Of a stretch of 64,000 nucleotides of DNA, positions 8 to 22,622 are shown in pieces. The translations under genes were made by a program, and so were the position numbers. Positions within the stretch are counted from its first letter, which is position 1. Every line of letters begins with the position of its first letter. The stretch is from positions 1 to 64,000 of the forward strand of contig JAOQAG010000014.1 of assembly GCA_025963715.1 (NCBI GenBank), read 5' to 3'. Source of the stretch: Bacteroidota bacterium. GTDB lineage: Bacteria > Bacteroidota > Bacteroidia > 2-12-FULL-35-15. The notes under the pieces are model-generated. The model did not search any database, was not told the DNA's origin, and saw nothing but the letters and a program-made list of their open reading frames with translations.

Positions 8-101
8 CTGTCATCCCGGGCTTGACCCGGGATCTGTTAAATACTTGCAGCGCCTACACAGTTCTTAATTGGCAGATCCCGGGTCAAGCCCGGGATGACA
101 G
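8..101. repeat. Family A palindromic repeat (copy 1), loop orientation 1
   Basis: Two perfect 29-bp inverted arms (8-36 and 73-101), built on GTCATCCCGGG / CCCGGGATGAC, enclose a 36-nt loop. The right flank up to about 147 (ending CTACAACATAACC) is also conserved in the copy at 22429-22622, so the element is longer than the palindrome and is cut by the window start. Relative to that copy the loop is inverted. It resembles the MITE/REP-like palindromes common in Bacteroidota. It is translated in some frames but is not a gene. Confidence 0.9.
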
Positions 102-173
102 TATTATTTGTGAATATTGTAAAAAAACATGTTACTACAACATAACCTTTTGTATTGCTAATTTTAATTTGCA

Positions 174-315
174 CGTCATTGCGAGGGCTTTTCGCCCGAA
201 GCAATCTCATTCTGGATTAAATACTGGTGTGAGATTGCTTCGGGCGAAAAGCCCTCGCAATGACGTTCTTAAAGGAATTCTTTTTTATGGTACAAAGTTC
301 CGGATACTCATTTAA
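174..315. repeat. Family B palindromic repeat (copy 1)
   Basis: Arms at 174-210 and about 229-265 (CGTCATTGCGAGGGC...GCCCTCGCAATGACG) form a long near-perfect inverted repeat. A conserved right tail (TTCTTAAA, then a TTTCTTTT-like tract and AAAGTTCCGGA) runs to about 315. Other copies lie at 4730, 6652, 22345 (mini, reversed) and 28913 (reversed). Confidence 0.9.
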
Positions 316-337
316 TAGTATAAAAAAAACAATGCTC

Positions 338-369
338 AAAAGCCACGATTTTCAACAATCGTGGCTTTT
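338..369. terminator. Bidirectional intrinsic terminator-like hairpin
   Basis: A perfect 13-bp stem (338-350 / 357-369) has a 6-nt loop and ends in T-runs on both strands. It probably ends a transcript from the left of the window, ahead of the TonB receptor gene. Confidence 0.75.
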
Positions 370-470
370 TATTTGGAGCGTAAAAGCGTTGCTAAAACAG
401 GATCAGCTGCTGATCTTCTATGTGTTTACGTCTAACTTCCATTATATTTTTTTAAGCAAAAAAGCCTGGA

Positions 471-478
471 TATGTTTG
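471..478 (+). promoter_or_regulatory. Putative -7 promoter element of the TonB receptor gene
   Basis: TATGTTTG matches the Bacteroidota -7 consensus TAnnTTTG exactly and lies 19 nt before the ATG at 498. No clear TTG is present at -33, so the call rests on the -7 box and its position. Confidence 0.45.
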
Positions 479-497
479 TGTAAAATATATTACAAAT

Positions 498-2942
498 ATG
501 ATAAAATCAATCATCCGGCTAAAGGCAAAACAGTGCATTATAATAAACATAATGTTATTCAGCTTCATTAGCAATGCAGCTCTGGCTCAATCAGACAGTA
601 TTCAAAAACCATTTAACCACAAGCTCTCCGGGATCATAAAAGATAAAGGTACAGGCGAAGCGCTTCCTTTTGCTATTATCCAGCTGAAAGGCACCACAAC
701 GGGTGTGACATCCAATGTGGATGGTTATTTTTCATTAACAAACATCCCGGCAGATACAAGTACCATTGTTGTATCCTACCCGGGATATTCGGCTACCGAG
801 ATCCAGTTAAAACCGGGACAGGCAACCACGGATTTTAAAATAGAAATGCTGCCTGCAGCAAAACAGTTAAAAGAAGTAACCGTTAGCGCAGAACGGGAAG
901 ATGTGATGCTGGTTGACCGCTCAAACGTAAGCATGATAAAAATGACTCCTAAAAAATTAGAGCAATTGCCTAACATAGGAGAAAAAGATATTCTACGCGC
1001 TTTTCAATTAATGCCGGGCATCAGCTCTTCCAATGAATCATCATCGGGCTTGTATGTCAGAGGAGGAACGCCCGATCAGAATCTTGTTCTTTATGATGGA
1101 TTTACGGTTTATCATGTGGATCACCTGTATGGATTTTACAGCGCATTTAATTCCAACGCGCTTAAAGATGTGCAGTTGTACAAAGGCGGATTCGAATCAA
1201 AATTCGGCGGACGGCTTTCGAGTGTTACTGAAATAACCGGTAAGGACGGGAATCAGAATAAATTTAATGTGGGTGCAGATGTAAGCTTGCTTAGCTTCAA
1301 TGTATTTGCGGAAGTTCCGATCGGAGATAAATTTTCTTCCATTGTTGCATTCCGCCGCTCTTACAGAGGGCTTTTATACAACCAGATCTTTGGGATGTTT
1401 AACGCTACAGGAGGTACAGCAAAAGCGGAAGGCGGAAGAGCGACCACCAGCACTACGGTTGCTTCTTTCTTTTATGATGTAAATGGAAAATTTACTTACC
1501 GGCCAACAAAAAAAGATATTATTTCGTTAAGCATTTATAACGGAACGGATAAGCTTGATAACAGCTCCGCAGCAACCGAGCAGCCGATCAGTGGCTCCAG
1601 CTCTACATTCAGCAACAGCAGCACCGATCTTACAAACTATGGAAATATCGGCAGCAGCCTTAAATGGTCGAGGCGCTGGAATGATAAATTATACAGCAAT
1701 ACCATTGCAAGCTATTCCAATTATTACAGCGACAGGAACAATTCACAAACCAAATCGATTACGGATTCACTGGGCGCTACCAATACAAGCAGCCAGGGGA
1801 TTTTTGAAACTAATAATTTACAGGATTACAGCTTAAAATCAGATTATCAATATGATCTGAAAAATAATGTGCAGCTGCAATTCGGAGGTTTTGGAACGTA
1901 TTACGATATACAATACACCTACGCTCAAAATGATACGGTCACTATTTTAAATAAAAACAACCAGGCTTATTTAACCGGAGCATACTTACAAAGTAAAATT
2001 GATTTATTGCATAACAAGATCCATTTTCTTCCCGGGATTCGCGCAAGCTATTTTACTACTACCAATAAAATGTATTACGAGCCGCGCGCATCGGTTGCCT
2101 ACAACATTAACGATAAAATAACGCTGAAAGCTGCAACGGGCTTGTATTACCAGTTTGCCAACCGTGTAACCCGGGAAGACATTCTTGCAGGAAGCCGCGA
2201 TTTTTGGCTGTTATCCGGTACAAACGATGTTCCGGTAAGTTCGGCAATGCATTACATCCTTGGCGCTGCTTATGAAAATGATAACTATCTTTTTAGTGTA
2301 GAAGGTTATTACAAAACGTTAAGCAATCTTACGGAATATTCGCTCCGGTTTAATCCCCAGCAAGGCAGCGATGTTAGCTACAGCGAAAACTTTTTTACCG
2401 GTAAAGGATTTTCAAGAGGTATTGAATTTTTAGTGCAGCGCAAAGTGGGTAAAATAAAAGGCTGGGTAAGCTATACGCTGGGGCAGGCACAAAATCTTTT
2501 CCCGGTTTATTCAACCGGTTATTTTCCGGCGGCACAGGATGTAACACACGAATTTAAAACGGTGCTGTTATACAAATATAAAAAATGGAATTTTTCAGCA
2601 ACCTGGGTATATGCCACAGGCAGGCCGTACACAGCGCCATCCGGGGCTTACAATGTAACACTGCTGGACGGTTCACAACAAAGCTTTTACACGGTTACAG
2701 CAAAAAACGGGCAACGCCTGCCAGCTTATCATCGTGCTGATATAGCTGTGAACTACAGCATATTTGCAGGAAAAAAGAACCGGCGCGAAATCGGGTACAT
2801 TGGTGTTTCGGTGTTTAATGTTTACAACAGAACAAATGTGTGGTATAAACAATATTCGATCACAAACGGACAGATCCTTCAGACAAATGTTAACTATTTA
2901 GGGATCACACCAAACTTAACATTATCATTTAAACTCAGATAA
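498..2942 (+). CDS. TonB-dependent receptor with carboxypeptidase-regulatory-like N-terminus
   Basis: Outer-membrane receptor of 814 residues for TonB-energised uptake of an unknown ligand. A signal peptide (residues 1-30, ALA before QSD) is followed by a carboxypeptidase-D-regulatory-like beta-sandwich (about 41-120), a plug domain (about 150-250, with LYVRGGTPDQN and VQLYKGGFESKFGGRLSS) and a long beta-barrel rich in alternating aromatic residues. The start at 498 gives a complete signal peptide and sits just after a good -7 box. The next gene begins one base after the stop and encodes a DUF4249 lipoprotein, the usual partner of this receptor subtype. It is not a SusC-type receptor: no SusD gene is nearby. 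The substrate cannot be read from the sequence. Confidence 0.93.
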   Translation: MIKSIIRLKAKQCIIINIMLFSFISNAALAQSDSIQKPFNHKLSGIIKDKGTGEALPFAIIQLKGTTTGVTSNVDGYFSLTNIPADTSTIVVSYPGYSATEIQLKPGQATTDFKIEMLPAAKQLKEVTVSAEREDVMLVDRSNVSMIKMTPKKLEQLPNIGEKDILRAFQLMPGISSSNESSSGLYVRGGTPDQNLVLYDGFTVYHVDHLYGFYSAFNSNALKDVQLYKGGFESKFGGRLSSVTEITGKDGNQNKFNVGADVSLLSFNVFAEVPIGDKFSSIVAFRRSYRGLLYNQIFGMFNATGGTAKAEGGRATTSTTVASFFYDVNGKFTYRPTKKDIISLSIYNGTDKLDNSSAATEQPISGSSSTFSNSSTDLTNYGNIGSSLKWSRRWNDKLYSNTIASYSNYYSDRNNSQTKSITDSLGATNTSSQGIFETNNLQDYSLKSDYQYDLKNNVQLQFGGFGTYYDIQYTYAQNDTVTILNKNNQAYLTGAYLQSKIDLLHNKIHFLPGIRASYFTTTNKMYYEPRASVAYNINDKITLKAATGLYYQFANRVTREDILAGSRDFWLLSGTNDVPVSSAMHYILGAAYENDNYLFSVEGYYKTLSNLTEYSLRFNPQQGSDVSYSENFFTGKGFSRGIEFLVQRKVGKIKGWVSYTLGQAQNLFPVYSTGYFPAAQDVTHEFKTVLLYKYKKWNFSATWVYATGRPYTAPSGAYNVTLLDGSQQSFYTVTAKNGQRLPAYHRADIAVNYSIFAGKKNRREIGYIGVSVFNVYNRTNVWYKQYSITNGQILQTNVNYLGITPNLTLSFKLR

Positions 2943-2943
2943 C

Positions 2944-3762
2944 ATGAAAATTTCAATGCCAAAAAAACCGATCTTCATTCTTGCCGTTTTATTTTTAAGC
3001 ATGGCGGTAAGCTGCACAAAAGAAGACAATACAGAGTTTACGGATGCCGCTATTATTGAAGCGTACCTCAATGATGGTCACTATTTTTCCCTTTCGGTGA
3101 GCCGCCAGATCCCCTTCTCCGATAACGTCACTTATTCTTCTGATGATATAAATAATTTATCGATCGCTATCAATTATAACGGCAGCACGCATACATTAAC
3201 ACCTTTAGGAAACGGGCAATATTCGGATAGCACGATTGTGATCAACCAGGGAAATGTTTACAATCTTTCATTTACATTCAATAATCAAAATGTAACCGCA
3301 ACAACCAGCATCCCTGCAAAACCAATTAATTTTCAGCAATCTGTAACCGGAATTACGGTTCCGCCACAAGTGGAATCCCATTCCGGGCCTACAGGAACAT
3401 TGCCTGATCCGGTGGAACTTTCCTGGAATAATCCCGATGGCAGCAATTATTTTGTTGTTATTCAAAATATGGAAACAAACCCGGTTCCAATCACAACGGG
3501 TGCAACCGGACAAAGTGATAAAACATTCCGGACACCGCCAACAAACTTAACGGTAACGGAAATACGGCCATTGGATTTTCAATATTATGGAATGCACCGC
3601 CTGATCCTGTATCACGTGTTGCCTGATTATGCTGCGTTATATGCAACCGGTAATAACAGCTCACAAAATCTTGCCAATCCCTCAACAGCAATTACCAACG
3701 GATATGGAATATTTACAGGATTAAATTCGGATACGCTGTTTATTGATGTGATACATCCCTAA
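2944..3762 (+). CDS. DUF4249 family lipoprotein
   Basis: A 272-residue lipoprotein. The lipobox is at LSMAVSC (cysteine about residue 24), followed by TKEDN. The body (AAIIEAYLNDG, VTATTSIPAKP, FFVVIQNME-like strands) fits the DUF4249 family, beta-rich proteins encoded directly downstream of carboxypeptidase-regulatory TonB receptors. It is co-transcribed with the receptor (one-base gap) and probably sits on the outer membrane as its accessory protein. At 272 residues it is shorter than many relatives (about 300-400). A hairpin follows the stop. The function is inferred from pairing only. Confidence 0.85.
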   Translation: MKISMPKKPIFILAVLFLSMAVSCTKEDNTEFTDAAIIEAYLNDGHYFSLSVSRQIPFSDNVTYSSDDINNLSIAINYNGSTHTLTPLGNGQYSDSTIVINQGNVYNLSFTFNNQNVTATTSIPAKPINFQQSVTGITVPPQVESHSGPTGTLPDPVELSWNNPDGSNYFVVIQNMETNPVPITTGATGQSDKTFRTPPTNLTVTEIRPLDFQYYGMHRLILYHVLPDYAALYATGNNSSQNLANPSTAITNGYGIFTGLNSDTLFIDVIHP

Positions 3763-3781
3763 CAGAAAACAGCCATCGGAG

Positions 3782-3808
3782 AAGGGCTGGTTTGTAGCGC
3801 CAGCCCTT
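3782..3808 (+). terminator. Hairpin after the receptor/DUF4249 pair
   Basis: Nine-bp stem AAGGGCTGG / CCAGCCCTT with a 9-nt loop, 20 bp after the DUF4249 stop. The T-tract is short (TTTA), so termination may be weak. Confidence 0.5.
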
Positions 3809-3851
3809 TAATGACGCTGAAATTTTATAACACAGGAAGCCCGGGAATAAT

Positions 3852-4727
3852 ATGAAAAGCAGGAACTTTGTAAGCCTAACAATTGCCTTCTCATTTTTAG
3901 CCATTTCTGTAACAGGCTTGTTATTATATTTTGGTGTAAAATCAGAATCAATAGAAACAATACATGTACTTTTTGGTTTGCTTTTTACCGGTTTTGCAAT
4001 TTTTCATATCTGGTATAATTTCAGCTCACTTAAAAATTATTCTAAAAACCGGAAAACAAACGTTATAAAAAAAGAGTTTGCTTTTGCTTCACTGATCTTT
4101 ATTTTTTTAACGATCGTCATGTGCCTGGGCTTTTCGTTTATTGAAGATCTTTCGCACGCAGGCAGAATACTTGCCGGGCATAACAAGAGCCATCAGCGCA
4201 AAGATGAAGGGCTAAGTTTTAGCCAGCTCTCTACCAATGAAAATGTGAAAGGCACTTCCCTGCATTTTGTTATATGGGAAAACGAAGAAGTGCTGGCTCC
4301 TTCAATAGTGATCTGGGTGGCAGATTCAAACAAAAAATATATTGAAAATATTTTTTTACCGGCAAAAGTGCTGACAGTACCGGCATCGGTTTTTGATAGC
4401 AGGGATTTCGAAAAACCGGATCTCAGAAAAGAACTGAAATTTAATGACTTTAATCCTGCATTGTTCCGGAAGTTCACAAAAAACAATCCCAATCTAAAAT
4501 TCAATTTCAGTAACGCCACACCCATCAGTAGTTTTATGCTGGAAACCAATACTCACGCAAAAAACAATTTTACTATTTGTCTTGAAATAATGTATGCAGG
4601 CACAACTGAATTTTACTATGCCACAATAAATGCCTCTAAAAACAGTACATTTCTGTTGCAGTCATCACAGAATAGATTTATCAAAAAGGGAGTGGTCATT
4701 ATTGATGATTTAAACAATTTTAATTAG
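3852..4727 (+). CDS. Membrane protein, DUF4405-like N-terminus with periplasmic C-terminal domain
   Basis: 291 residues. Three hydrophobic segments at about 8-27, 36-56 and 76-97 match the DUF4405-type membrane module, with a histidine in segment 2 (FHIW) that could be a haem or metal ligand in this fold. The soluble remainder (about 115-291) is probably periplasmic. Its strand IVIWVADSNKKYIENIF recalls the start of DUF2271 domains (predicted iron-related periplasmic domains), but I place this only tentatively. It stands alone between a hairpin and a family B repeat. An iron or redox role would be inference. Confidence 0.6.
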   Translation: MKSRNFVSLTIAFSFLAISVTGLLLYFGVKSESIETIHVLFGLLFTGFAIFHIWYNFSSLKNYSKNRKTNVIKKEFAFASLIFIFLTIVMCLGFSFIEDLSHAGRILAGHNKSHQRKDEGLSFSQLSTNENVKGTSLHFVIWENEEVLAPSIVIWVADSNKKYIENIFLPAKVLTVPASVFDSRDFEKPDLRKELKFNDFNPALFRKFTKNNPNLKFNFSNATPISSFMLETNTHAKNNFTICLEIMYAGTTEFYYATINASKNSTFLLQSSQNRFIKKGVVIIDDLNNFN

Positions 4728-4729
4728 TA

Positions 4730-4853
4730 CGTCATTGCGAGGGCTTTTCGCCCGAAGCAATCTCATTCTAGTTCATAATCTGGTGTGAGATTGCTTCGGG
4801 CGAAAAGCCCTGTGCCACCGCTAAAGCTATGGCGACACGCGGTCGCAATGACG
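4730..4853. repeat. Family B palindromic repeat (copy 2) with 33-nt insertion
   Basis: The same palindrome as at 174, but the right arm is split by a 33-nt segment (4811-4843, GTGCCACCGCTAAAGC...). The exact reverse complement of that segment is in the copy at 28923-28955. The conserved tail (TTCTTAAAATAATTTC) continues to about 4900. The element begins two bases after the preceding stop codon. Confidence 0.9.
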
Positions 4854-4899
4854 TTCTTAAAATAATTTCTTTTCAGGATGCAACCTTCCGGAACTCAAT

Positions 4900-5145
4900 A
4901 AATTTATTACGCACTTAATACGGCGCATTCATAGCTGCAGGCAATCTTCATACAGCCTGGCACTATTTATTTCTCTCTGCGCAGCAATTTATTTTAAAAA
5001 AAAATAGCGATTAAAGCCCTCCGGGCATTAAATGGCACAAATTATTCATTGGACAAATTGGGATAGCTGATCATAACACTTTCTGACTTCCCTCATTCAA
5101 CGGACTTTAAGCAAAGCCTGATTTTGTTTTACAAATTATAAAAAA
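4900..5145. other. Intergenic, no gene seen
   Basis: AT-rich sequence between the repeat and the DoxX-like gene. I see no convincing ORF; the ATG at 5031 gives only 12 codons. No clear promoter box stands out. Confidence 0.5.
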
Positions 5146-5580
5146 ATGGAAACACTCGCTCAACACCACGAATCAATAGCAGCACTAATTGCAAGGGTAT
5201 TCCTGGGCCTCCTTTTCTTCTTCCAGGGATATGATGCAGTATTTAAAATAAAAATATCCAATGTAATTGAAACGTATGAAAGCTCATTTGCGGACAAAGG
5301 CATTCCGCGTTTTTTAACCGTATGTGGTGCATGGTTTACTTCTTATGCAGAGCTGATCGGTGGCTTGTTCCTTATTACCGGATTGTTTGAATACTGGAGC
5401 TTATCCCTCCTTGGACTCGACCTGATTGTTGCTTCCATAGGATTTTGCATTGTTTCTTCGATTTGGGATACACGCCATGTTTTCCCACGGCTGGTATTGC
5501 TTATTTTTTTACTGGTAATACCTCCGGCATGGGACCATTACTCCCTTGATCATTTATTATCCATCATTTATAAAAACTAA
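5146..5580 (+). CDS. DoxX-like membrane protein
   Basis: 144 residues with four predicted membrane helices (about 12-32, 65-82, 86-105, 113-130). The first helix ARVFLGLLFFFQGYDAVFK and the motif AELIGGLFLITGLF are typical of the DoxX/SURF4-like superfamily, small inner-membrane proteins with redox or stress links in some bacteria. The universal stress protein gene starts 6 bp downstream, so the two are probably one transcript. The biochemical function is unknown. Confidence 0.75.
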   Translation: METLAQHHESIAALIARVFLGLLFFFQGYDAVFKIKISNVIETYESSFADKGIPRFLTVCGAWFTSYAELIGGLFLITGLFEYWSLSLLGLDLIVASIGFCIVSSIWDTRHVFPRLVLLIFLLVIPPAWDHYSLDHLLSIIYKN

Positions 5581-5586
5581 ATTATC

Positions 5587-6417
5587 ATGAAAACAATTCT
5601 CGCTCCCACAGACTTTTCAACATCCGCAGACAATGCCATTGATTATGCGGCAGAGATAGCAAAAGCAACCAATGCAAAACTTGTTCTTTTCCACGTGTAC
5701 AACATCCCGATAGTTCCTGCAGAAGCTCCTATTGCAATGCCAACAGAAGAAATAGAAAAAGATGCGATGGCTGAACTGCAAAAAATAAAACAGCGCCTGG
5801 ATATGAAACACGGAGAGCAGCTCTCTGTACGATGTGAATGTGAGCTTGGATTTCCGGTGGAAGAGATCAATTCATTTGCAAAGACGTGTAACGCCGACCT
5901 GATCGTGATGGGAATGGAAGGTACCGGGGCCTTAACCGAGAAACTAATCGGCAGCATTACAACAGCGCTTATAAAAAAAGCAAATTGCCCGGTGCTGGCG
6001 ATAGATGAACATGTACAATTTACCAGCATCGGAAAAATAGCTTTTGCTTCCGATTATAATCAAACAAACAATAAATTGGTGCTTGCACCTTTAAAAGAGT
6101 TCGCCGAATTGTTTAAATCCCACATCTACATTCTGAATGTGGTTCCGGAAGGTGAAGAAATTCCTTCTATAGACAAAGCGGTGGAAGGAATAAAACTGGA
6201 GCATTTGCTGGAAGGTACCGATCATTCGTTCCATTTCAAAAACAATAAAAATATTGTTGATGGGATCAATCAATTTGTGGAAGAACAAAAGATCAACATG
6301 GTGGCAATCATCCCGCGGAAACATCAGTTATTTCAAAATTTATTTCAGGAATCTACAACTAAACGCATGGCTTTTCATACAAAAATTCCTTTGCTGGCAT
6401 TGCACGAACAGGAATAA
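5587..6417 (+). CDS. Two-domain universal stress protein (UspA family)
   Basis: 276 residues containing two Usp folds in tandem. The first starts MKTILAPTDFS and ends with the nucleotide-binding pattern GMEGTG-ALTEKLIGS and then CPVLAID (about residues 110-142), which suggests an ATP-binding subtype. The second (about 146-276) ends TKIPLLALHE and lacks a clear G-2x-G-9x-G motif, so it is probably degenerate. A cytoplasmic role in stress or low-energy conditions is expected from the family. It is probably co-transcribed with the DoxX-like gene. Confidence 0.9.
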   Translation: MKTILAPTDFSTSADNAIDYAAEIAKATNAKLVLFHVYNIPIVPAEAPIAMPTEEIEKDAMAELQKIKQRLDMKHGEQLSVRCECELGFPVEEINSFAKTCNADLIVMGMEGTGALTEKLIGSITTALIKKANCPVLAIDEHVQFTSIGKIAFASDYNQTNNKLVLAPLKEFAELFKSHIYILNVVPEGEEIPSIDKAVEGIKLEHLLEGTDHSFHFKNNKNIVDGINQFVEEQKINMVAIIPRKHQLFQNLFQESTTKRMAFHTKIPLLALHEQE

Positions 6418-6536
6418 TTATAAAGCATACTATATCCTGATCAAAAATAAAAAATAAAATTGCACAGGATTGTTTTTATTCTGAATGACGATGCTCAGTT
6501 TCAGCCATGATTCAGATCAGTAACAAAAAAAATCCT

Positions 6537-6565
6537 GTTGGGCGTAGCGTCCCGCTACGCCCAAC
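6537..6565 (-). terminator. Perfect 13-bp hairpin
   Basis: Stem 6537-6549 / 6553-6565 (GTTGGGCGTAGCG) with a 3-nt loop. On the minus strand it is followed by AGGATTTTTTT, so it could terminate minus-strand transcripts that read past 6804. On the plus strand it has no T-run. It may instead be a degenerate repeat. Confidence 0.4.
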
Positions 6566-6651
6566 GACAAACACGACATTTAACATTGATTGACTATCCG
6601 AAAGTTTATACCAGGCTTATACTATTTTAATTGAAAAAACCTTAATTTGTG

Positions 6652-6743
6652 CGTCATTGCGAGGGCTTTTCGCCCGAAGCAATCTCATTCTGGTTCATAA
6701 TCTGCTGTGAGATTGCTTCGGGCGAAAAGCCCTCGCAATGACG
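6652..6743. repeat. Family B palindromic repeat (copy 3)
   Basis: A near-perfect palindrome CGTCATTGCGAGGGC...GCCCTCGCAATGACG with the usual tail (TTCTTAAAATAATTTC ... AAAGTTCCGGATACTCA) to about 6790. It is preceded by GTTTATACCA, a motif also found beside family A copies. Confidence 0.9.
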
Positions 6744-6803
6744 TTCTTAAAATAATTTCTTTTCATGGTGCAAAGTTCCGGATACTCAATAATATTATTC
6801 AAA

Positions 6804-6832
6804 AAAAAATCCGGCTGCTAACCGGATTTTTT
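6804..6832. terminator. Bidirectional terminator
   Basis: AAAAAATCCGG / CCGGATTTTTT stem with a 7-nt loop, 24 bp downstream of the stop of the minus-strand GloVer-repeat gene. Confidence 0.85.
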
Positions 6833-6855
6833 TATTTGAATGATTGATTTAAAAA

Positions 6856-12276: not shown

Positions 12277-12301
12277 CATCACCAACCAACTAACCACAAA
12301 C

Positions 12302-13723: not shown

Positions 13724-13749
13724 GAACTGATCCCGATTAAAAAATAAAA

Positions 13750-13785
13750 AAACGCCTTTGCACAAAATTTGTGTAAAGGCGTTTT
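13750..13785. terminator. Bidirectional terminator between convergent genes
   Basis: AACGCCTTTGCACAAA / TTTGTGTAAAGGCGTT stem (one mismatch) flanked by A- and T-runs. It separates the plus-strand lipoprotein gene from the minus-strand regulator gene ending at 13814. Confidence 0.85.
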
Positions 13786-13813
13786 TTGCATGTTTTTACA
13801 TTATAGGATTTGC

Positions 13814-14509
13814 CTACTTGCGTGTAAGGTCATCACGCAGTGAAAGCTCCGATACATCCACAAGTGCGGCAGTGATGGCAAACACCACCAACCCGGCGCT
13901 GTTGCGGATGCCTGTTTTTTCCAGGATGCGGTTTCGATGGCCTTCCACGGTGCGGATACTGAGGAATAATTTTCCGGCAATTTCCGTATTTGTATACTGC
14001 TTGCAGATGAGCCGGATGATCTCGATCTCGCGCGCCGACAAAGGAGAATGTGAAGTAAAATCGGGTTGGGCTGGTTGCGGGTCACGCAAAAAATCCTGGA
14101 TCAATGCAAGATCTTCCTGCCGGTAATAAATACCCGCTTCATGCACTTTGAAAATAGCCGCAGTTAATTCTGCACTGCTGCAGTTCTTTGGCATAAAAGC
14201 AGCAAATCCATTGCGCAATGCAGCAGCTACATACACTGGCTTGTAAAAACTCGACAGTGCGATCATGCGCAGATCCGGGTAACGCTGATGCAATGACTCC
14301 ATAAGGTCCAGCCCGCTCTCTGCTTTTAACTTAAGATCGGCAAGCAATATATCCGGCAATCCTTTTGCCTGGATCGCCTGTTCCAGGCCTTGCCCGTCGA
14401 ACACCCGGAAGAATATCTCAAATGAAATTTCCTTTGCAAGCAACAGGGCCAATGCTTCGGTGAACAATACATCATCATCCACAAAACCAACTTTTATTTT
14501 TTTTGTCAT
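13814..14509 (-). CDS. LuxR/NarL-type response regulator
   Basis: 231 residues. The receiver domain (about 5-122) has the acidic pocket DDD at 11-13, the phospho-acceptor aspartate 58 (LLADLKL), the Ser near 86 (ALSSF) and the Lys near 108 (MPKN). A LuxR-type helix-turn-helix follows (about 150-215; LSAREIEIIRLICK ... TNTEIAGKLFLSIRTVEGHRNRI). It is transcribed last in a minus-strand four-gene unit, with its ATG overlapping the kinase stop by 4 bp, so the two form a two-component pair. Target genes cannot be read from the sequence. Confidence 0.93.
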   Translation of the reverse strand: MTKKIKVGFVDDDVLFTEALALLLAKEISFEIFFRVFDGQGLEQAIQAKGLPDILLADLKLKAESGLDLMESLHQRYPDLRMIALSSFYKPVYVAAALRNGFAAFMPKNCSSAELTAAIFKVHEAGIYYRQEDLALIQDFLRDPQPAQPDFTSHSPLSAREIEIIRLICKQYTNTEIAGKLFLSIRTVEGHRNRILEKTGIRNSAGLVVFAITAALVDVSELSLRDDLTRK

Positions 14510-15285
14510 GCGTGTTGTTTCACAAGTAATAACGTTGTTCCTTTTCCGGGTGCCGCGCGCAGGCGACTCTTTGCTTCTATCGCTTTACAACGCTTATTAA
14601 TATTTATAAGCCCCGTTCCTTTTTTGAGTGTTGCCGGATCAAAACCGCAACCATTATCGCTCAGTAAAAGTACAGTATTGGAATTAAATATTCGAAAATG
14701 GATCGTGACCTGTTCCGCTTTTCCATGCCGCACGCTGTTGTGTATAAATTCCTGGCAGATCCGGAATAATTGCAACGTGGTCCATTCATCTGCCTGTAAA
14801 TTTTGTTTGGTATAAACGATCCTCAGTTTGGTTTTCTCTGCAAGATCTATCGCAATTTCTTTCAGCGCAAGTATAATTCCCCATTCTTTCAGCATCGGCG
14901 GGTAAATGCCGTGACTGAGATCGCGCATGTCTTCAATATTTTTATCGAGCAGCTGGTTGATCCCGGAAAGAAAACCGGATTGCTGATCTGCAGGAGCAGT
15001 ATACAGTTGCTGCACTTTCATTTTTAATGTGCTGAGACTTACGCCGAAATGATCGTGCAGATCGGAAGCAATGCGCTGCTTTTCCTCTTCGCTGGCATTG
15101 ATCTGCGCTTTTAATAATTCCTGCTGGTATTCCAATTGCTGGATCTGCTGCTCCATCTGCGCACGCTCCGCTTTTCGGAAACCCAAACGCACAAGCAGGA
15201 TCATGGATACCACCAGCAAGCCTATAAACACAAAAGCAATCAGGATCCAGGCACCAATGATGGACGTGTTTTGCCATTCTTCCAT
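14506..15285 (-). CDS. Sensor histidine kinase (HisKA_3/NarX-like)
   Basis: 259 residues. One N-terminal membrane helix (about 9-33) is followed by a coiled-coil linker rich in Glu and Gln (38-70), the dimerisation/phosphoacceptor motif IASDLHDHFGVSLS with His77, and an HATPase domain (N-box FIHNSVRHG, G1 DNGCGFD, G2 KKGTGLININ). There is no sensory domain beyond the helix, so the signal may come through the membrane protein encoded just upstream. The start at 15285 makes a 46-bp overlap with that gene; the next Met lies inside the helix, so I keep the longer form. Confidence 0.92.
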   Translation of the reverse strand: MEEWQNTSIIGAWILIAFVFIGLLVVSMILLVRLGFRKAERAQMEQQIQQLEYQQELLKAQINASEEEKQRIASDLHDHFGVSLSTLKMKVQQLYTAPADQQSGFLSGINQLLDKNIEDMRDLSHGIYPPMLKEWGIILALKEIAIDLAEKTKLRIVYTKQNLQADEWTTLQLFRICQEFIHNSVRHGKAEQVTIHFRIFNSNTVLLLSDNGCGFDPATLKKGTGLININKRCKAIEAKSRLRAAPGKGTTLLLVKQHA

Positions 15286-15911
15286 ATTTCAAAAATCAGG
15301 AATGTATAAAAAGCCATTGTCAGTATTAAATTTGCCAGCCAAAAATAAAATTTGAGCTGCGACGGTACGTTGATCAGAAAATTAACCGGTAAAAAAAATA
15401 CGAGGTTGAGCGAAAAGAAAAGCAGGATGGCCGAATTCATTCGCATGCGCTCTACCGCTAAGGGCACGGCATTGCCGATCTCCCTGAAATGAAGCATACA
15501 AAGAAACACAACAGTTACAGGATCCACCACCCGGCTGTATGCATTAAAATGCAGGGGATCCATCCACTCTCCCTGGTAAAATTCCCAGGCAATAAAACCA
15601 AGCCCAATAACAGGTACGATGAGCAAAAATCTGGATTGTGACGGAAGGAAATAACGGAAATATAACCAGGTAAAAAATGCAAGTTCAAGAAACCCGAACA
15701 ATGGAATAAAAAGCAGGTTGTTGTGCATTACAATTCCAAAGATCCGGCTCAGCACATCAATGATCAGTGCCATTGCCAGATAGCCCAGCAACAAACGGTG
15801 CACTGCATTCAAGGCTAAAAATCGAAAAAGCCCGATGATCACTCCGGCGATCAGAAGCAGCGGCATGCAATACGTAAATAGTTCGATAAAAAATTTGGCG
15901 CCCCCATTCAT
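15240..15911 (-). CDS. Polytopic membrane protein upstream of the kinase
   Basis: 223 residues with about seven hydrophobic helices (about 8-28, 33-52, 57-86, 93-108, 124-143, 159-178, 184-206) and a short C-terminal tail. I do not recognise a named family; the topology resembles the seven-helix sensory modules fused to or encoded beside kinases in Bacteroidota. Its 3' end overlaps the histidine kinase gene by 46 bp, which suggests translational coupling. Acting as the missing sensor for the kinase is inference. Confidence 0.75.
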   Translation of the reverse strand: MNGGAKFFIELFTYCMPLLLIAGVIIGLFRFLALNAVHRLLLGYLAMALIIDVLSRIFGIVMHNNLLFIPLFGFLELAFFTWLYFRYFLPSQSRFLLIVPVIGLGFIAWEFYQGEWMDPLHFNAYSRVVDPVTVVFLCMLHFREIGNAVPLAVERMRMNSAILLFFSLNLVFFLPVNFLINVPSQLKFYFWLANLILTMAFYTFLIFEIWKNGKTRPSLVPGS

Positions 15912-15925
15912 AGCTCTTATACGGG

Positions 15926-16522
15926 TTATGGCAACAATGCAAATCTTTTTCTGGCTGTAGCATCTTCTCCAAAAGGAGGAACCGGCATCACCGTATCTTC
16001 GAATACCAACGTTTTGGAAAAAGGAACCAATACCAGGTCTACAAAATAAGAAGCTTCATTACGTCTTAAATCCGGGATTAGCCCAAAATATGCAACGATG
16101 CTCTCTTCATTTTCATCCAGATCAGTTCCAGGAATTAAAAATGCTTCAACAACAGTTGCATCTTTAATAGTAGTATCTAACCACGACTTAAAATTAATCT
16201 CCCAGGCTCTGATCCGGGCCATTGCCGTCGGCAATGGGATGTCATTATCCCGGGGCGGTATGCGATCTACTCCAGCCTGAACAATATGTTCCGCTGTTTT
16301 AAGTTTGCTCTCCTGATCATACGTAGAGGATATAAGATAAAATTGAATGTCGTCATTTTTATCAATTGCAGGATAAGCATGCAGATCTATCGCAGGTTGC
16401 AGTATATCGCCAACCGGAAAATGAAACCCTGTAATGACACCCAATGCGTCCATTGCTTTGATGTTATTTTTGTTATCATTCCATTTTTTTATTGCAGCGC
16501 GAACCTCATTTATATCCAGCAT
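15926..16522 (-). CDS. Uncharacterised cytoplasmic protein, first gene of the kinase operon
   Basis: 198 residues, no signal peptide or membrane segment. It starts MLDINEVRAAIKKWND and contains LHAYPAIDKNDDIQFYLISSTYD and the C-terminal proline-rich MPVPPFGEDAT. I recognise no domain. A promoter lies immediately upstream and the membrane protein gene follows after 14 bp, so it is probably co-expressed with the two-component system. Confidence 0.75.
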   Translation of the reverse strand: MLDINEVRAAIKKWNDNKNNIKAMDALGVITGFHFPVGDILQPAIDLHAYPAIDKNDDIQFYLISSTYDQESKLKTAEHIVQAGVDRIPPRDNDIPLPTAMARIRAWEINFKSWLDTTIKDATVVEAFLIPGTDLDENEESIVAYFGLIPDLRRNEASYFVDLVLVPFSKTLVFEDTVMPVPPFGEDATARKRFALLP

Positions 16523-16542
16523 GTCTGTAAGTGTTTTTTTTA

Positions 16543-16572
16543 TAAAGATATAATTTTTCAGGAATAATGCAA
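16543..16572 (-). promoter_or_regulatory. Putative promoter of the kinase operon
   Basis: Read on the minus strand: TTG (16572-16570), a 19-nt spacer and TATCTTTA (16550-16543; 7 of 8 to TAnnTTTG). It would leave a leader of about 14 nt before the ATG at 16522. Confidence 0.5.
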
Positions 16573-16801
16573 TGATTTGACGAGCAGGATGAAAAGGAAA
16601 TTTTTATGACTCTTGAGCAGGATCATTTAAGCTACAACATCCGGAGCCACAGATTCACAGATTTCTGATCTGTGTAATGGCTTTATACTTTTTTAATCTG
16701 TAAATCTGTGGCAAAACAGCGCATAATTTCCACAATTCCTTCCTGGCATATTATTTTGGTAAGCATTTACAATGAATACTTAACCTCAACCCCCGAAGAC
16801 C

Positions 16802-17014
16802 ATGAACCACCTGACCTCTTCCAAAATCCGCCATTTCCTTGATGCTTTCACAGGAAAACACAATGAAACTATTAATTCCGGGCAAACCGTAAAAAATACG
16901 GCCGCTCCGCAAATGGGTTCCTCTACAAATTTTTGGGGACATGGTTTTGAAGCGGATGGGCTCAGCTGGGATGAATATGGAAATCCGTATGTGATAAATG
17001 ATACCGTTCATTAA
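16802..17014 (+). CDS. Possible small protein of 70 residues
   Basis: ORF starting MNHLTSSKIRHFLDAFTGKH and ending NPYVINDTVH, without signal peptide or membrane helix. In its favour, a TATTTTGG box (16752-16759) resembles a -7 element and the ORF fills an otherwise empty interval with plausible composition. Against it, no family is recognised and a minus-strand ORF overlaps. It lies just before repeat-rich sequence. Confidence 0.4.
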   Translation: MNHLTSSKIRHFLDAFTGKHNETINSGQTVKNTAAPQMGSSTNFWGHGFEADGLSWDEYGNPYVINDTVH

Positions 17015-17122
17015 CCGGAAAATGAATCTTTTAAAAAGAGCCATTCGGAGCTTTATACCATAAAAAGAAATTACTTAAAAAATGCCATTGCGCAGCCCAA
17101 GCGGAGAAGATCTTATTTAAAT

Positions 17123-17411
17123 CTACCACATAAGGCACAAAGAAACACATAAGGCAAGATATGCCATGCTAACATGTGCCCGCCCCTTTTGAACCAAAAG
17201 AAAACAAAAAAAACAAAAGAAAAGTAAAAGGCGATACGCAGCAATACCAACGTGTTTTGCTTACCCATTTCTACCACATAAGGCAACTTGTAAATTACCA
17301 ACATGTATTACATACAGTTTAACAATCGGGTCTTTTGTTTTTCTTTTGTTCCTTTTGTGGTGAACCTTTTTTCGCGCTACGCCTTATGTGTTTCTTTGTA
17401 CCTTATGTGGT
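17123..17411. repeat. Family C long inverted repeat (copy 1)
   Basis: Outer arms TACCACATAAGGCACAAAGA.. (17123-17152) and ..TTTGTACCTTATGTGGT (17381-17411) enclose a second pair of arms made of CAAAAGAAAACAAAA-like tracts (about 17190-17230) and TTTTGTTTTTCTTTTG-like tracts (about 17332-17365). Other family C copies are at 22109, 22635 and, as halves, 9950 and 63601. The ORFs across it are repeat translations. Confidence 0.8.
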
Positions 17412-17442
17412 TTAATCGGGTAATGGTGATTTCATTTCGATT

Positions 17443-17552
17443 TGTCATCCCGGGCCTGACCCGGGATGACAGCTCAGAAAAGTATTTCTGTTTCCATAGC
17501 AACATTGTTCTACAACATAACCATAAAAAACAATCATAAACTTGGTATAAAT
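17443..17552. repeat. Family A element, palindrome collapsed (copy 2)
   Basis: The core (17443-17471) is a single GTCATCCCGGG...CCCGGGATGACA palindrome without the 36-nt loop. The right side (AGTATTTCTGTTTCCATA, CTACAACATAACC at 17510-17522, then CTTGGTATAAA) is the reverse complement of the left side of the 22402-22480 copy, so this copy is in the opposite orientation. Confidence 0.8.
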
Positions 17553-17604
17553 CTTCCGATTTCATTATTTTTTAAACACCACAGGATATTTTCCCCGGAT
17601 TTAT

Positions 17605-17634
17605 TTTGAACAACAGCGCGATTTGTTAAATTTG
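17605..17634 (+). promoter_or_regulatory. Putative promoter of the large T9SS protein gene
   Basis: TTTG (17605-17608), an 18-nt spacer and TAAATTTG (17627-17634), a full match to the Bacteroidota consensus. The leader to the ATG at 17688 is about 47 nt. Confidence 0.6.
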
Positions 17635-17687
17635 AGTCGGCTTTACTTACTCCAAAATATTTTTTATAGAGCCGCTCCTTTAAAATC

Positions 17688-20600
17688 GTGAAACGTTTTT
17701 ATATATTTTTTTTAGTAGTGTGCTGTTGTTTTGGATCCAATTATTCCAAAGCCCAAACTACTTATACCTGGACCGGAGCCACCGGCGCAAGCTGGGCTGT
17801 ATCCACCAACTGGTCGCCAACACGCACCATACCCGCTACCACAGATGTTATTTTATTTAACAGCGGCACCACCTTAAACATCACTGCCGTTCCAACACAA
17901 ACTATCCGCTCCTTAACCATTACCAACAATAGTAACATTACATTAACCGGCGCTGCAGGTATTTTAACATTGGCCATCAACGGCCCCACGCTTACCAATA
18001 ACCTGTTGATCGATGCAGGTTCCACGCTGCTGCTTACATCAGCCGGAACAACACTCACACTTAACTTTTTAACTACAGCAAGCCAGCGCGGACAAATCGA
18101 CGGTAGCCTGCAATTAATAAAAGGGATTTTTAATACATCGGGCATTGCTACTACGCTTGTAACAGTTGGCAGCGGGGGAAACATTACCAACAATTCATCT
18201 GTTAGCGGCGGCACACCGGTTGCAGGATCAGCGACAACGCTTGTATTTGCAAGCGGTGCGGGCTACAACCACATTACTGCAACGCAGGTAGCCGTGCCCA
18301 CGGCAACGTACGACGTAAACTCTACCGCCAATTTTACGGCGGGCACTTCCAGCATCAATAACATGACGCAGGCCTTCGGGAACCTGACCGTAAATTCTGC
18401 GGGAACGCTCACGCTGGTAAGCGGCAGCCCTACCATTGCAGGAGTATTTACATTAACAACCGGTGTGTTTGCCGTAAATGCAAATGCGTTAACGCTTAAC
18501 GGAACCATTGCATCCACAGGAACAGGAACCATCACCGCAAGTGGCAGCATCAGCATCGGCGGAAGCGGCGGCGATTACGGCACGCTGCGTTTTACATCGG
18601 CGCCCACGCTTACGGCATTTACAATGAACAGGGCAGGCGCAGGCATGGTAAGCATTACACAAGCGGTAACCATCAGCACGGGCGGAACGCTCAATCTTAC
18701 AAACGGTGTGATCAACAGCAACGGAAATTTAATTTCGGTAACCAATGGCGCTGCAGCTGCTGTAACCAATAGCGGTGGCACGGCATCGTATGTGAACGGC
18801 GCATTGCAACGTACGCTTGCCGCGAATTTAAGCGCCGCTACCATTATTTTTCCGGTTGGAAAAACAGCTTGTCAGAAAGTTTCTTTTAACGGGCTTTCCA
18901 CCACCAGCTCTGCAAGTAACGCCGTTGTTAAGGTAGAAGCCTTTGATGCGGATTGCGGCGGAACATTCAGCTCCAGCCTCACCGCATTAAATACAGATAA
19001 TTATTGGAGCGCAACTGTTATCTCAAATGCAACAAGCCTCTCCAGCCCGGGCACCATCAGCCTTACAGATGCAGCACCGGTAGTGGATGCAACAAAAGTG
19101 ATTACTAATTGCAGCACACTTGCAGGGAGCTATTCATCGATCGGGGGCAGCAGCGCCGCACCTGTACTTACTTCTACACTGGCTATTCCTGCTGCTCTTG
19201 GTTATTTTGTGATCGGCACAAAAAATAATACACCGCTTTGCGGCAGCTACACCATCGGGCCAACCGGAACATTTGCAACGGTTACAGATGCGGTAAATTC
19301 ACTGAACACACGGCCGGTTACCTGCAGCGTGATCTTTGAACTGGAAACTACATATACGGGTGCCGGAGAAAGTTTCCCTATCAGTATTTTATATACCGGC
19401 TCCGCTTCCGCTACAGCGATCTTCCGTCCCATAACAGGTGCTGGAACACTTACCACCGCTGGTGATCCGGGATCGGGCAATGCGCTGATCAATTTTAACG
19501 GTGCCGATTATGTAACATTTGATGGAAGGCCGGGAGGCGCCGGAAGCACTGTTAACTGGGTTCTCCGCAATTCACGCACCGCTTCCATTGTTGGCCCCGC
19601 GATCCAGTTTTCCAACGGCGCTACCAATGATGTGCTGCAATATGTGCGTACAGAAAGTCAGAATTCAGCGGGAACCAGCGGCACTATTTACATCAGCAGC
19701 TATCCTTTGTGGGCGGCGGGAAATAATAATATCACCATTCAAAATTGCGACATTACAAAATATACAAGCGCCACCACCACACATGTAAACGCTATTTATG
19801 CATACGGCCAAACGGCAAACCCGAACAGTTACATCCAAGTCTTAAATAATAACATTCACAGCTTTACACCGGCCATCACTTCGGAAGCTACCGGCGTTAC
19901 CGTAACCGGTACCGGGCTTAACACCAATTACGGTGATAACTGGACGATCAGCGGAAATAGCTTTTACCTCGATTGTGTAGAGCAACAATTGTACAGGTAT
20001 ACGGTCATTAATTTTATTCCGGGATTAGGCTCCGCAGGAAATACGATCTCTAATAATTACATCGGCGGCACGGCGCCCTTGTGCGGAGGATCTACCTGGA
20101 CAACCGCTGTAGGCGGCGCAGGCAACACCATTCAAACCTTTGAAGGTATTTACGTAACGGCAGGAAGCACCGCAATTACCGGCAACACCATTCAGAGCAT
20201 CAGCCTCACAGGCATGGGTGGTACATCGTACGGAGCCATCCACCTTGCGAACGGAAGCTCTTCCGGCGTTTATTCCATCGCCAATAATTTAATAGGAAGC
20301 ACAGGAACCTGCAACAGCATTCAGAATGCGGGGCAATGGAAAACGGTTGGCATTTGGTGCGACAATACCTGCGGAACTGTTTCGGTGACGAATAATACCA
20401 TTGCCAACATGACGGAAATAAACGCGTTGAATGCTGCTGCTACGTTAACCGGCATTTATTCGGATTGCGGATCAAATACAATTACCGGGAATACCATTTA
20501 CAATTTAACGGGCGCCGTAACCACCAGCGTTGCACAATTGTACATTGCGCACGATGGCAGCGTGGTGGGCATTGCAGACAAAAGCATTAACAGCGGCAGC

Positions 20601-22076
20601 ACACAAACCATTTCCAACAACACGATCTATAATTTAAAAAGCACGTACACCGGTGGAACCGCCAATAAATTATACGGAATTTATACCGTCATCGGAGAAC
20701 CGGGACAAACACACGTGTACAACGCCAACTTAATTTACGGAATAGATGCTGCCGATGGAAGCAGCAATGCAAGGATCATTGGGATTGGTGCAGTAGGCTC
20801 CAGCTGGTCGAGTGCGGTTACTTCTGTTTTCAGCAACAACATGATCGATTTAGGTTATCGCATGGATGGGACTTCTATTATTTCGGGCGCGGAAATAACC
20901 GGGATCCTTGATAATACAGCGGGTTATACAAGCGGCGCTAACACTACTTTTATGGATTATTATTACAACAGCGTTTACATCGGCGGAAGCGGCGTTACCG
21001 GAACTACCAATAATACATATGCTTTCAGGCGGCTCAATACTAATTCCAGCCCGAAAAATACGGAAGACCTGCGGAATAATATTTTTGTAAATAACCGATC
21101 TAACAGCACGGGAATTAAAATCCATTACTCGATCTACCTCGATAATTCCAACACCATTACCAGCAATTACAATGATGGCTGGGGAAGCGGAACGGGTTAT
21201 AAATTTGGCAGTACGCTTGCCACAGATTATGTGACGCTTGCCAACTGGCAATCCGCAACCGGTTTCGACAACAATAGTATTTCTTCCAATCCGCTTTTTC
21301 AGCAAAGCACACTCCCTGCAGATCTGCATTTGCAAGCTGGCAGTCCCGCAACAGGTACTGGAATAAACATTACAGTTGCAGCGGATTATGATGCACAAAA
21401 CCGGCCGGGCGGTTATGATATAGGTGCTGATCAGTACGATGCCGCTTACAGCATGCCATCGCTTACAGTCACTCCCTGCGGCGGTGTGATTGCATTGCCG
21501 GTGGAGCTTTTATTTTTTAACGGAAAATTACAGAATAAAAAAGCGCTGCTATCCTGGGCCACCGCTACTGAAACCAATTGCGATCATTATACCATCGAAA
21601 GAAGTACGGATGCTGTAAATTTTATATCCGTTGGAACGGTAAGAGGCGCGGGGACTTCCAGCGCTGTACTAAATTATTCTTTCACAGATGATCTGCAAAA
21701 CGTTTACACGGATGATCAATCACAGATATTTTATTACCGCTTAAAACAAACGGATTACGATGGACATTTTGAATATTCCAATACCATTGCATTAAAAAGT
21801 ACAGCAGAAAATGATGTTGCTATGGATGCCTTTCCAAATCCTGTTACTGATCAACTGGAAATAAAAATTTCGGGATCCGGTTTGTTAAATTGCAGCTATA
21901 CGCTTACGGATGTGTTTGGAAGAGAAGTGATCAGGAAAAATGAATTTAGCATTGACAATAATCAATTGTATCAGCTTGACCTGTCGGACATACAACCGGG
22001 GATATATGTGTTAACGATTACTGTTAATGGAAGCAATTCTATGCAGCGTTTTACAAAAAAGATCATCAAAAAATAG
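17688..22076 (+). CDS. Large T9SS-sorted secreted protein with beta-helix region
   Basis: 1462 residues. A signal peptide (1-22, SNYSKA before QTTYTW) is followed by low-complexity beta-strand repeats rich in Thr, Ser, Asn and Gly (about 25-500; TWTGATGASWAVSTNWSP opening). A second part (about 515-1220) has phrases such as NNNITIQNCDI, NTISNNYIGG and ITGNTIQSI, typical of right-handed parallel beta-helix repeats. A linker domain follows (about 1270-1370; ELLFFNGKLQNKKALLSW, common before sorting domains), then a T9SS type A C-terminal domain (DAFPNPVTDQLEIKI ... GIYVLTI ... TKKIIKK). It should be exported by T9SS and act outside the cell, perhaps as an adhesin or glycan-binding protein; no catalytic motif is seen. 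It is a single-gene transcript. Confidence 0.92.
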   Translation: MKRFYIFFLVVCCCFGSNYSKAQTTYTWTGATGASWAVSTNWSPTRTIPATTDVILFNSGTTLNITAVPTQTIRSLTITNNSNITLTGAAGILTLAINGPTLTNNLLIDAGSTLLLTSAGTTLTLNFLTTASQRGQIDGSLQLIKGIFNTSGIATTLVTVGSGGNITNNSSVSGGTPVAGSATTLVFASGAGYNHITATQVAVPTATYDVNSTANFTAGTSSINNMTQAFGNLTVNSAGTLTLVSGSPTIAGVFTLTTGVFAVNANALTLNGTIASTGTGTITASGSISIGGSGGDYGTLRFTSAPTLTAFTMNRAGAGMVSITQAVTISTGGTLNLTNGVINSNGNLISVTNGAAAAVTNSGGTASYVNGALQRTLAANLSAATIIFPVGKTACQKVSFNGLSTTSSASNAVVKVEAFDADCGGTFSSSLTALNTDNYWSATVISNATSLSSPGTISLTDAAPVVDATKVITNCSTLAGSYSSIGGSSAAPVLTSTLAIPAALGYFVIGTKNNTPLCGSYTIGPTGTFATVTDAVNSLNTRPVTCSVIFELETTYTGAGESFPISILYTGSASATAIFRPITGAGTLTTAGDPGSGNALINFNGADYVTFDGRPGGAGSTVNWVLRNSRTASIVGPAIQFSNGATNDVLQYVRTESQNSAGTSGTIYISSYPLWAAGNNNITIQNCDITKYTSATTTHVNAIYAYGQTANPNSYIQVLNNNIHSFTPAITSEATGVTVTGTGLNTNYGDNWTISGNSFYLDCVEQQLYRYTVINFIPGLGSAGNTISNNYIGGTAPLCGGSTWTTAVGGAGNTIQTFEGIYVTAGSTAITGNTIQSISLTGMGGTSYGAIHLANGSSSGVYSIANNLIGSTGTCNSIQNAGQWKTVGIWCDNTCGTVSVTNNTIANMTEINALNAAATLTGIYSDCGSNTITGNTIYNLTGAVTTSVAQLYIAHDGSVVGIADKSINSGSTQTISNNTIYNLKSTYTGGTANKLYGIYTVIGEPGQTHVYNANLIYGIDAADGSSNARIIGIGAVGSSWSSAVTSVFSNNMIDLGYRMDGTSIISGAEITGILDNTAGYTSGANTTFMDYYYNSVYIGGSGVTGTTNNTYAFRRLNTNSSPKNTEDLRNNIFVNNRSNSTGIKIHYSIYLDNSNTITSNYNDGWGSGTGYKFGSTLATDYVTLANWQSATGFDNNSISSNPLFQQSTLPADLHLQAGSPATGTGINITVAADYDAQNRPGGYDIGADQYDAAYSMPSLTVTPCGGVIALPVELLFFNGKLQNKKALLSWATATETNCDHYTIERSTDAVNFISVGTVRGAGTSSAVLNYSFTDDLQNVYTDDQSQIFYYRLKQTDYDGHFEYSNTIALKSTAENDVAMDAFPNPVTDQLEIKISGSGLLNCSYTLTDVFGREVIRKNEFSIDNNQLYQLDLSDIQPGIYVLTITVNGSNSMQRFTKKIIKK

Positions 22077-22108
22077 ATCTGCTCTCTTGTATTAAAAAAA
22101 TAAAAATC

Positions 22109-22205
22109 TACCACATAAGGCACAAAGAAACACATAAGAGCAGAATGTAACATGCCAATGTTTATTATGTGTTTAACAGGGTGCTGTCTTATGTGTTCCT
22201 TTGTT
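22109..22205. repeat. Family C inverted repeat (copy 2)
   Basis: Arms TACCACATAAGGCACAAAG.. (from 22109) and CTTATGTGTTCCTTTGTT (to 22205) enclose a short AT-rich centre with AACATGCCAATGTT, a motif also near 10029. Confidence 0.75.
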
Positions 22206-22344
22206 GGAAAACAAAACGGAATTTATGAATTATAGTTTTTAAGAAAATTATAGAATAATAACGTGATCATTAGGTGTGCAGGATCAAATTCCCCTCTTGA
22301 GAGGGGTTAGGGGTGTGTTCATATAGAAAACATTATCTTAAGAA

Positions 22345-22373
22345 CGTCATTGCGACACGCGGTCGCAATGACG
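22345..22373. repeat. Family B mini-palindrome
   Basis: CGTCATTGCGACACGCGG plus TCGCAATGACG: only the outer arms of family B plus ten bases of the 33-nt insertion. It is preceded by TTAAGAA, so it runs opposite to the copies at 174, 4730 and 6652. It looks like a deletion derivative. Confidence 0.8.
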
Positions 22374-22428
22374 CGTTGATTAAAATTTTTTAATAAAACA
22401 GTTTATACCAAATGCTTTTATTTTGTAT

Positions 22429-22622
22429 GGTTATGTTGCAGAACATTATTGTTTATGGAAACAGAAATACTTTCTTAAGCTGTCATCCCGGGCTTGACCC
22501 GGGATCTGCCAATTAAGAACTGTGTAGGCGCTGCAAGTATTTAACAGATCCCGGGTCAAGCCCAGGATGACAGTATTATTTGTGAACATTGTAAAAAAAC
22601 AACATTTTACTACAACATAACC
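22429..22622. repeat. Family A element, full copy with terminal inverted repeats and flipped loop
   Basis: The element is bounded by GGTTATGTTGCAG (22429-22441) and CTACAACATAACC (22610-22622), imperfect terminal inverted repeats. Inside is the 29-bp-arm palindrome (22480-22508 / 22545-22573; one mismatch). The 36-nt loop (22509-22544) is the exact reverse complement of the loop at 37-72, although both flanks match copy 1 in the same orientation. It has no coding capacity, so it is MITE-like. Confidence 0.85.

Follow-up and report, generated by a model that had tools for sequence, protein, structure and literature searches.

A loop of DNA held between two near-perfect inverted arms could in principle turn around without disturbing its surroundings, and two 94-bp palindromes in one Bacteroidota bacterium raise the question of whether this has happened. 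They lie at 8-101 and 22480-22573 of the window, a stretch of 64,000 bases that forms bases 1-64000 of contig C8 (GenBank JAOQAG010000014.1) in a draft genome of 4.91 Mb and 51 contigs. Their near flanks are collinear, with TCTTAAG on the left and TATTATTTGTGAA.ATTGTAAAAAAAC on the right, and the original prediction described reverse-complementary loops and near-identical 29-bp arms, from which it proposed that the loop flips between the arms. The description is confirmed by letter-for-letter comparison: loop 37-72 is the reverse complement of loop 22509-22544 in every letter, and the 94-bp copies show 1 difference when one is read as the reverse complement, against 23 on the direct strand. 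Arms 8-36 and 73-101 are complementary at 29/29 positions, and one mismatch falls in arm 22545-22573. The similarity is far above chance, as the element is present dozens of times genome-wide and folds strongly (single-stranded copy 8-101, -39.9 kcal/mol against a shuffled mean of -10.8; z -11.7). Beyond this pair, the direction of the spacer with respect to the element ends varies in two mobile families, and on several element lineages.

The flanks common to the two palindromes are internal parts of a mobile element of ~194 bp, so their collinearity is not proof of a shared locus; the elements holding 8-101 and 22480-22573 in fact occupy different loci. Around the second copy, the outer 8-mers TTTTGTAT and AAAAAGAT differ at 6/8 positions, leaving no matching target duplication. 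The first copy stands at the contig start, where bases 1-127 form an exact 127-bp overlap with the starts of contigs C9 and C35, and its left neighbor is therefore not fixed. All three contigs meeting at this overlap carry the inverted 127-mer only, which argues for a genuine inverted junction.

The mobile element, termed here MITE-1 (for miniature inverted-repeat transposable element; its two ends and flanks are called L and R), is non-autonomous and too small for a gene. Forty fetched hits oriented by their loop give the layout GGTTATGTTGTAG...TTCACAAATAATA, palindrome, CTTAAGAAAGTATTTCTGTTTCC...CTACAACATAACC, with the palindrome in the middle, GGTTATGTTGTAG terminal inverted repeats (TIRs) at both ends and, in many copies, an 8-bp target duplication. 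A pattern of L flank plus arm has 58 genome-wide matches at <=3 mismatches, compared with 0 for a control pattern. Two CGTC-type repetitive extragenic palindromes (REPs), arranged as an inverted pair around a spacer of 36-41 nt (shorter forms exist), make up the palindrome, and each arm reads TGTC-ATCCCGGG-CTTGA-CCCGGGAT, with a CCTGA loop variant. Loop-less copies, in which one short palindrome (for example CTGTCATCCCGGGTCAAGCCCGGGATGACAG) replaces the dimer, are also seen at C10:164204-164242, C13:22855-22893, window 17443-17480 and elsewhere, several of them with intact target duplications.

Di Nocera et al. (2013; PMC3733652) reported CGTC-tagged REPs and their inverted dimers in Bacteroidetes, and the units here match that description, as far as the main text of that paper gives it, in most respects. 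The tag sits beside the stem (TGTC-ATCCCGGG in MITE-1, CGTC-ATTGCGAG in a second family, MITE-2), the MITE-1 stem of 8 bp starts from AT and closes on a 5-nt loop, within the 8-9 bp and 4-5 nt of the class, and no transposase gene is flanked by the repeats. The exception is the unpaired tail, which is CT (CTG or CTC in MITE-1) rather than the usual CCA, a feature that the main text assigns to most CGTC-tagged REPs, not all. The dimers of that study likewise have spacers, mostly of 20-100 bp and some conserved, and in A. variabilis and H. neapolitanus they can be nested within further palindromic tracts; here, unlike there, two MITEs with target duplications are built around such dimers, and the spacer varies in direction relative to the MITE ends. 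The main text of PMC3733652 never uses the word 'inversion'.

Dimers sharing the loop ends (CATAAATGTT.GCAG ... AACAGATC) and without MITE flanks occur in the metagenome-assembled genomes (MAGs) RYN_273 and RYN_274 ('Bacteroidetes bacterium', the nearest named relatives seen) as well as in this genome, and the REP dimer therefore probably predates MITE-1, to judge by these sequences. No papers on RYN_273 were found. Exact flanks had 0 matches in a scan of named genomes, a collection from which the bacterium's own or very near genomes may be missing. Matches to orthologous loci were present in 5/59 and 8/36 genomes, own genome included, and those in relatives were weak and partial. What moves MITE-1 was sought as well. 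In 1.65 Mb, no element with MITE-1 ends emerged as a plausible autonomous partner, the two candidates looking like chance matches; DDE_Tnp_IS240 (PF13610) was not found in the genome, and other transposase families were not searched. An IS6-type transposase, suggested by a resemblance of the ends and by the 8-bp duplications, was accordingly rejected. Two Y1_Tnp genes are present in the genome, and neither 3.2-kb locus contains exact GTCATCCCG or GTCATTGCG; a link to REP-associated tyrosine transposases (RAYTs) was rejected, both genes being without these palindromes at their flanks.

How often does the loop face the other way? Loop direction was scored in a working set of 1,650,486 bases (54 segments, ~1/3 of the genome) chosen partly via MITE-1 matches, a sampling that does not obviously favor either direction. 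Of the 59 pairs of flanks obtained, 32 were standard, 4 were inverted and 5 were symmetric, while 18 stayed unscored. Inspected by eye, the unscored pairs comprised three clear loops, all standard (C13:22237, C4:114341 and C42:111277), 14 loop-less copies and one spurious pair (C3:37733); the symmetric pair C24:32658 was also judged spurious. The unpaired list, together with the raw view, supplied one more inverted copy, C16:168631; C27:85200 was counted although its flanks match weakly (5 and 6 mismatches), and the contig-end copies on C8, C9 and C35 were counted as one. C20:87470, which has only an L flank (6 mismatches) and appears inverted, was left out, as were other single-flank copies, mostly standard. 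The resulting count of loop-bearing, two-flank copies is 35 standard and 5 inverted, a clear departure from 1:1 (p 7e-7).

Loop inversion has truly taken place in MITE-1, repeatedly and in a minority of copies. Its five inverted copies carry loop type A (two loci), type B and short-loop forms, so that several independent inversion events are needed, and since 5/40 is far from 1:1 the standard orientation is probably ancestral and copy 8-101 derived. The same imbalance speaks against ongoing free flipping. Two loop-B copies at C16:124294 and C16:124638 lie 344 bp apart in the same orientation.

MITE-2, built around CGTCATTGCGAG REP dimers, provides the strongest evidence for loop inversion, beyond that from the pair first noticed. 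It has different ends (TATCGGAAAGTTTATACCA... and ...ATGGTACAAAGTTCCGGATAC), TATCGGAAAGTTTATACCA-like TIRs at both of them, and a spacer of only 20-23 nt; at the best offset, 5/17 copies have matching 8-bp duplications, whereas the other offsets average 0.41. Among 15 full-length loop-bearing copies, nine have the loop in orientation F and six in the reversed orientation R (p 0.61 against 1:1), an inverted fraction whose excess over that of MITE-1 is borderline (Fisher p 0.052). Duplications at 0-1 mismatch, taken at a fixed offset, flank 3/6 R copies and 2/9 F copies. A tree of these 15 rows built from flanks only requires 6 orientation changes, the maximum possible with 6 minority rows, and 11 are needed on a tree of the R flanks from 32 copies (17 F, 15 R). 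Flank distance is uncorrelated with loop distance (r -0.08, p 0.70) and with orientation (r -0.08, p 0.83). The loops are diverse, with 34 different ones among 39 second-family dimers, and one and the same 20-nt loop runs in opposite directions at C7:105419 and C8:82724. Loop direction compared across copies, one of the checks put forward with the original prediction, varies in both families.

Target duplications record where a MITE-1 copy was inserted. Where both ends were found, they match at 0-1 mismatch in 11/21 standard loop-bearing, 0/3 inverted and 0/3 symmetric copies, the last two together differing from the first (0/6; one-sided Fisher p 0.027); C17:31, an R/R copy at a contig end, has no complete end pair and falls outside this comparison. 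The loss of duplications from inverted and symmetric copies points to exchange with other copies. With different loci, unlike 8-mers around 22480 and three scoreable inverted copies that lack a match, the proposal of an in-place flip at the two window loci is not supported, while its broader idea, a loop inverting between inverted arms, points to the correct kind of mechanism.

Some symmetric copies of MITE-1 have an L end on both sides; these copies, at C2:3201-3294, C5:18479-18561 and C15:213339-213368, are the expected remnant of arm exchange in the wrong register. Their elements extend over C2:3152-3343, from C5:18434 onward, and over C15:213292-213414, where the symmetry runs past the element ends into flanking repeats. 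Arms of one copy are more alike (0.964) than arms shuffled between copies (0.924; 0/10,000 shuffles as high, 38 copies), the homogenization expected of template switching if subfamily structure is set aside. At C3:40849-40941 the opposite strand of the copy's own R flank replaces part of the loop and arm, giving TTCTTAAGCTGTCATCCCGGG-TCAAG-CCCGGGATGACAGCTTAAGAA and creating a new inverted repeat, and this TTCTTAAGCTGTCATCCCGGG insert looks like the signature of a quasi-palindrome template switch.

Taken together, we lean toward the reading that the spacer has been inverted over evolution through its near-perfect arms, by template switching or by recombination/gene conversion, within or between copies. 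By its homology, an arm would pair just as readily with the one arm as with the other in any copy; replication template switching or recombination/gene conversion could then pair it with the opposite arm of the same or another copy, and rejoining after such mispairing would leave the spacer reversed. That the arms mediate the inversion, with no dedicated invertase, we infer. Exchange between copies is more likely the main route than flipping inside a single copy: in MITE-2, neither the sequence nor the orientation of the loop follows flank ancestry, and the scoreable inverted MITE-1 copies have no matching target duplications.

Several observations weigh against this reading. No locus has been seen in both orientations across two genomes or reads, and rapid loop divergence combined with in-place flips could also yield the missing correlation between loop and flank. 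The inverted MITE-1 copies taken alone (0/3 against 11/21) provide a weak test (p 0.14), and two of the 11 are not independent: C24:15807 and C30:13716 carry the duplication of a single insertion. Target duplications split between distant halves show no clear excess (L-R 8/625; same-type control 4/644), and given these numbers the partner halves C2-C30, C2-C35 and C8-C24 are suggestive and were not taken as proof. The arm shuffle is blind to subfamily structure, no branch of the 15-row flank tree is strongly supported, and the inverted copy shared by C8, C9 and C35 depends on contig-end 127-mers.

The alternatives differ in how much of this they can accommodate. In-place flipping, whereby the loop of one copy inverts between its own arms through a cruciform or strand switching at a fork, with no second copy and possibly still in the population, strikes us as doubtful without being negligible. 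It fits MITE-2 best, given the shorter spacer, which accompanies the near 1:1 ratio, and the intact target duplications of half the R copies; the strong hairpin of MITE-1 and the spacer inversion already known from PMC8604942, in the passages drawn on here, are likewise favorable. Against it stand the 5:35 imbalance and unmatched duplications in MITE-1, and in MITE-2 the nearest flank sisters with opposite loops, which often differ in loop sequence too. A history without any inversion, in which the MITEs captured REP dimers in both directions on separate occasions, is improbable: dimers free of MITE flanks in this genome and two related MAGs could have supplied such captures, but flank/arm junctions fall at identical positions in standard and inverted copies, and the identity of loop A in 8-101 and 22509-22544 would be unexpected for separate events.

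An artefact at 8-101, whether a hairpin-driven library chimera or a wrong graph join at contig ends, is very improbable. The copy does lie within the overlap of three contig starts, and C17:1-140, an R/R fold-back with scattered mismatches at a contig end, may itself be a hairpin sequencing or assembly artefact; yet the three meeting contigs hold only the inverted 127-mer, and four more inverted MITE-1 copies and the MITE-2 R copies are internal to contigs and have sequence differences of their own. We give almost no credence to a programmed invertible switch (phase variation) worked by a site-specific recombinase, though no search for such an enzyme was made. A short reversible segment between inverted repeats has the right shape for one, but the copies are dispersed in dozens, the loops of the second family are highly varied, and convergent open reading frames flank the 22480 copy as well as the 46795 copy, with no evident promoter role. 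The evidence does not establish a programmed or fast switch.

Most of what is known about the reversal of spacers between short inverted repeats comes from reporter assays, from coding sequences of yeast and from comparisons among plastids. In chloroplast DNA, small hairpin-loop inversions mean that a loop flanked by short inverted repeats can face either way; these affect single, nonmobile organellar loci, whereas the elements here are dispersed and mobile. Perfect or perfected arms, a reversed spacer and arm homogenization are common to our elements and to the yeast sites for which PMC8604942 describes arm homogenization and spacer inversion through template switching; the part of that study used here concerns single loci between strains and spacer changes of 2-5 bp, in contrast to 20-41-nt spacers in dispersed repeats of one bacterial genome. 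Bacterial MITEs such as RUP, NEMIS and ERIC, as listed in the main text of PMC3733652, are similarly non-coding, 70-300 bp long and bounded by terminal inverted repeats; the interior here differs in being an exchangeable REP dimer. A literature search found no description of loops inverted in this way within REPs or MITEs of bacteria, which does not prove that none exists.

Since this single genome holds two mobile families in dozens of copies, each copy bearing an orientation marker and a target duplication that records its insertion, inversion rate could be related to spacer length and between-copy exchange separated from in-place flips. It is possible, and we raise it tentatively, that these elements consist of a chassis and a cassette: the ends transpose, and the REP-dimer core is swapped among copies and turned through its arms, to the point that loop sequence and loop orientation are both randomized relative to the ends in MITE-2. 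If so, the genome would be a natural record of the rates of palindrome-driven inversion and conversion, one in which a 20-nt spacer inverts more often than a 36-41-nt spacer. There are also two warnings: collinear flanks around such loops may be part of the repeat, and it is at such copies that the present draft assembly breaks.

Table 1. Palindromic elements of the window, and inverted MITE-1 copies of the genome (the latter by contig)
Feature	Location	Strand	Remarks
MITE-1 copy truncated by contig start	1..147	-	REP dimer 8-101 between 7 bases of R flank on one side and L flank plus TIR (to 147) on the other; loop inverted with respect to L flank
Left arm, single REP unit TGTC-ATCCCGGG-CTTGA-CCCGGGAT	8..36	no strand	
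Loop type A, 36 nt	37..72	+	inverted relative to element ends
Right arm	73..101	no strand	29/29 complementary to 8-36
Second-family REP dimer (CGTCATTGCGAG)	173..266	+	loop 20 nt at 210-229; MITE-2 R flank on right
Second-family REP dimer with MITE-2 R flank	4730..4854 (approximate)	+	loop 4766-4785
Full-length MITE-2	6590..6790 (ends approximate)	+	around REP dimer 6652-6743; loop F orientation
MITE-1 R half	17443..17522 (approximate)	-	loop-less single palindrome
Complete MITE-1, 194 bp	22429..22622	-	R end 22429, L end 22622; standard loop orientation
REP dimer arm	22480..22508	no strand	
Loop type A, 36 nt	22509..22544	-	standard orientation
REP dimer arm	22545..22573	no strand	one mismatch
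Degraded REP dimer, loop type B	46795..46896	-	without MITE-1 flanks
REP dimer, loop type B	58802..58897	+	without MITE-1 flanks
Inverted MITE-1	C35:27-128		same 127-mer as C8:1-127 and C9:1-127
Inverted MITE-1	C13:38784-38889		
Inverted MITE-1	C21:24713-24803		
Inverted MITE-1	C27:85200-85290		
Inverted MITE-1	C16:168631-168722		

Two further dimers of the window, at 46795 and 58802, had been cited as carrying the second loop type in opposite orientations. They do have a related loop on opposite strands; however, they have no element flanks in common, and their opposite strands are therefore uninformative on flipping, for which reason they were rejected as a flip pair. Immediately upstream of the 46795 copy, at window 46616-46718, is a separate 46-nt imperfect inverted repeat (GCGCGAGTATCCCAACGTGCCG), and a palindrome resembling it, GCGCGAGTGTCCCACTCG, adjoins one Y1_Tnp gene (locus L050).

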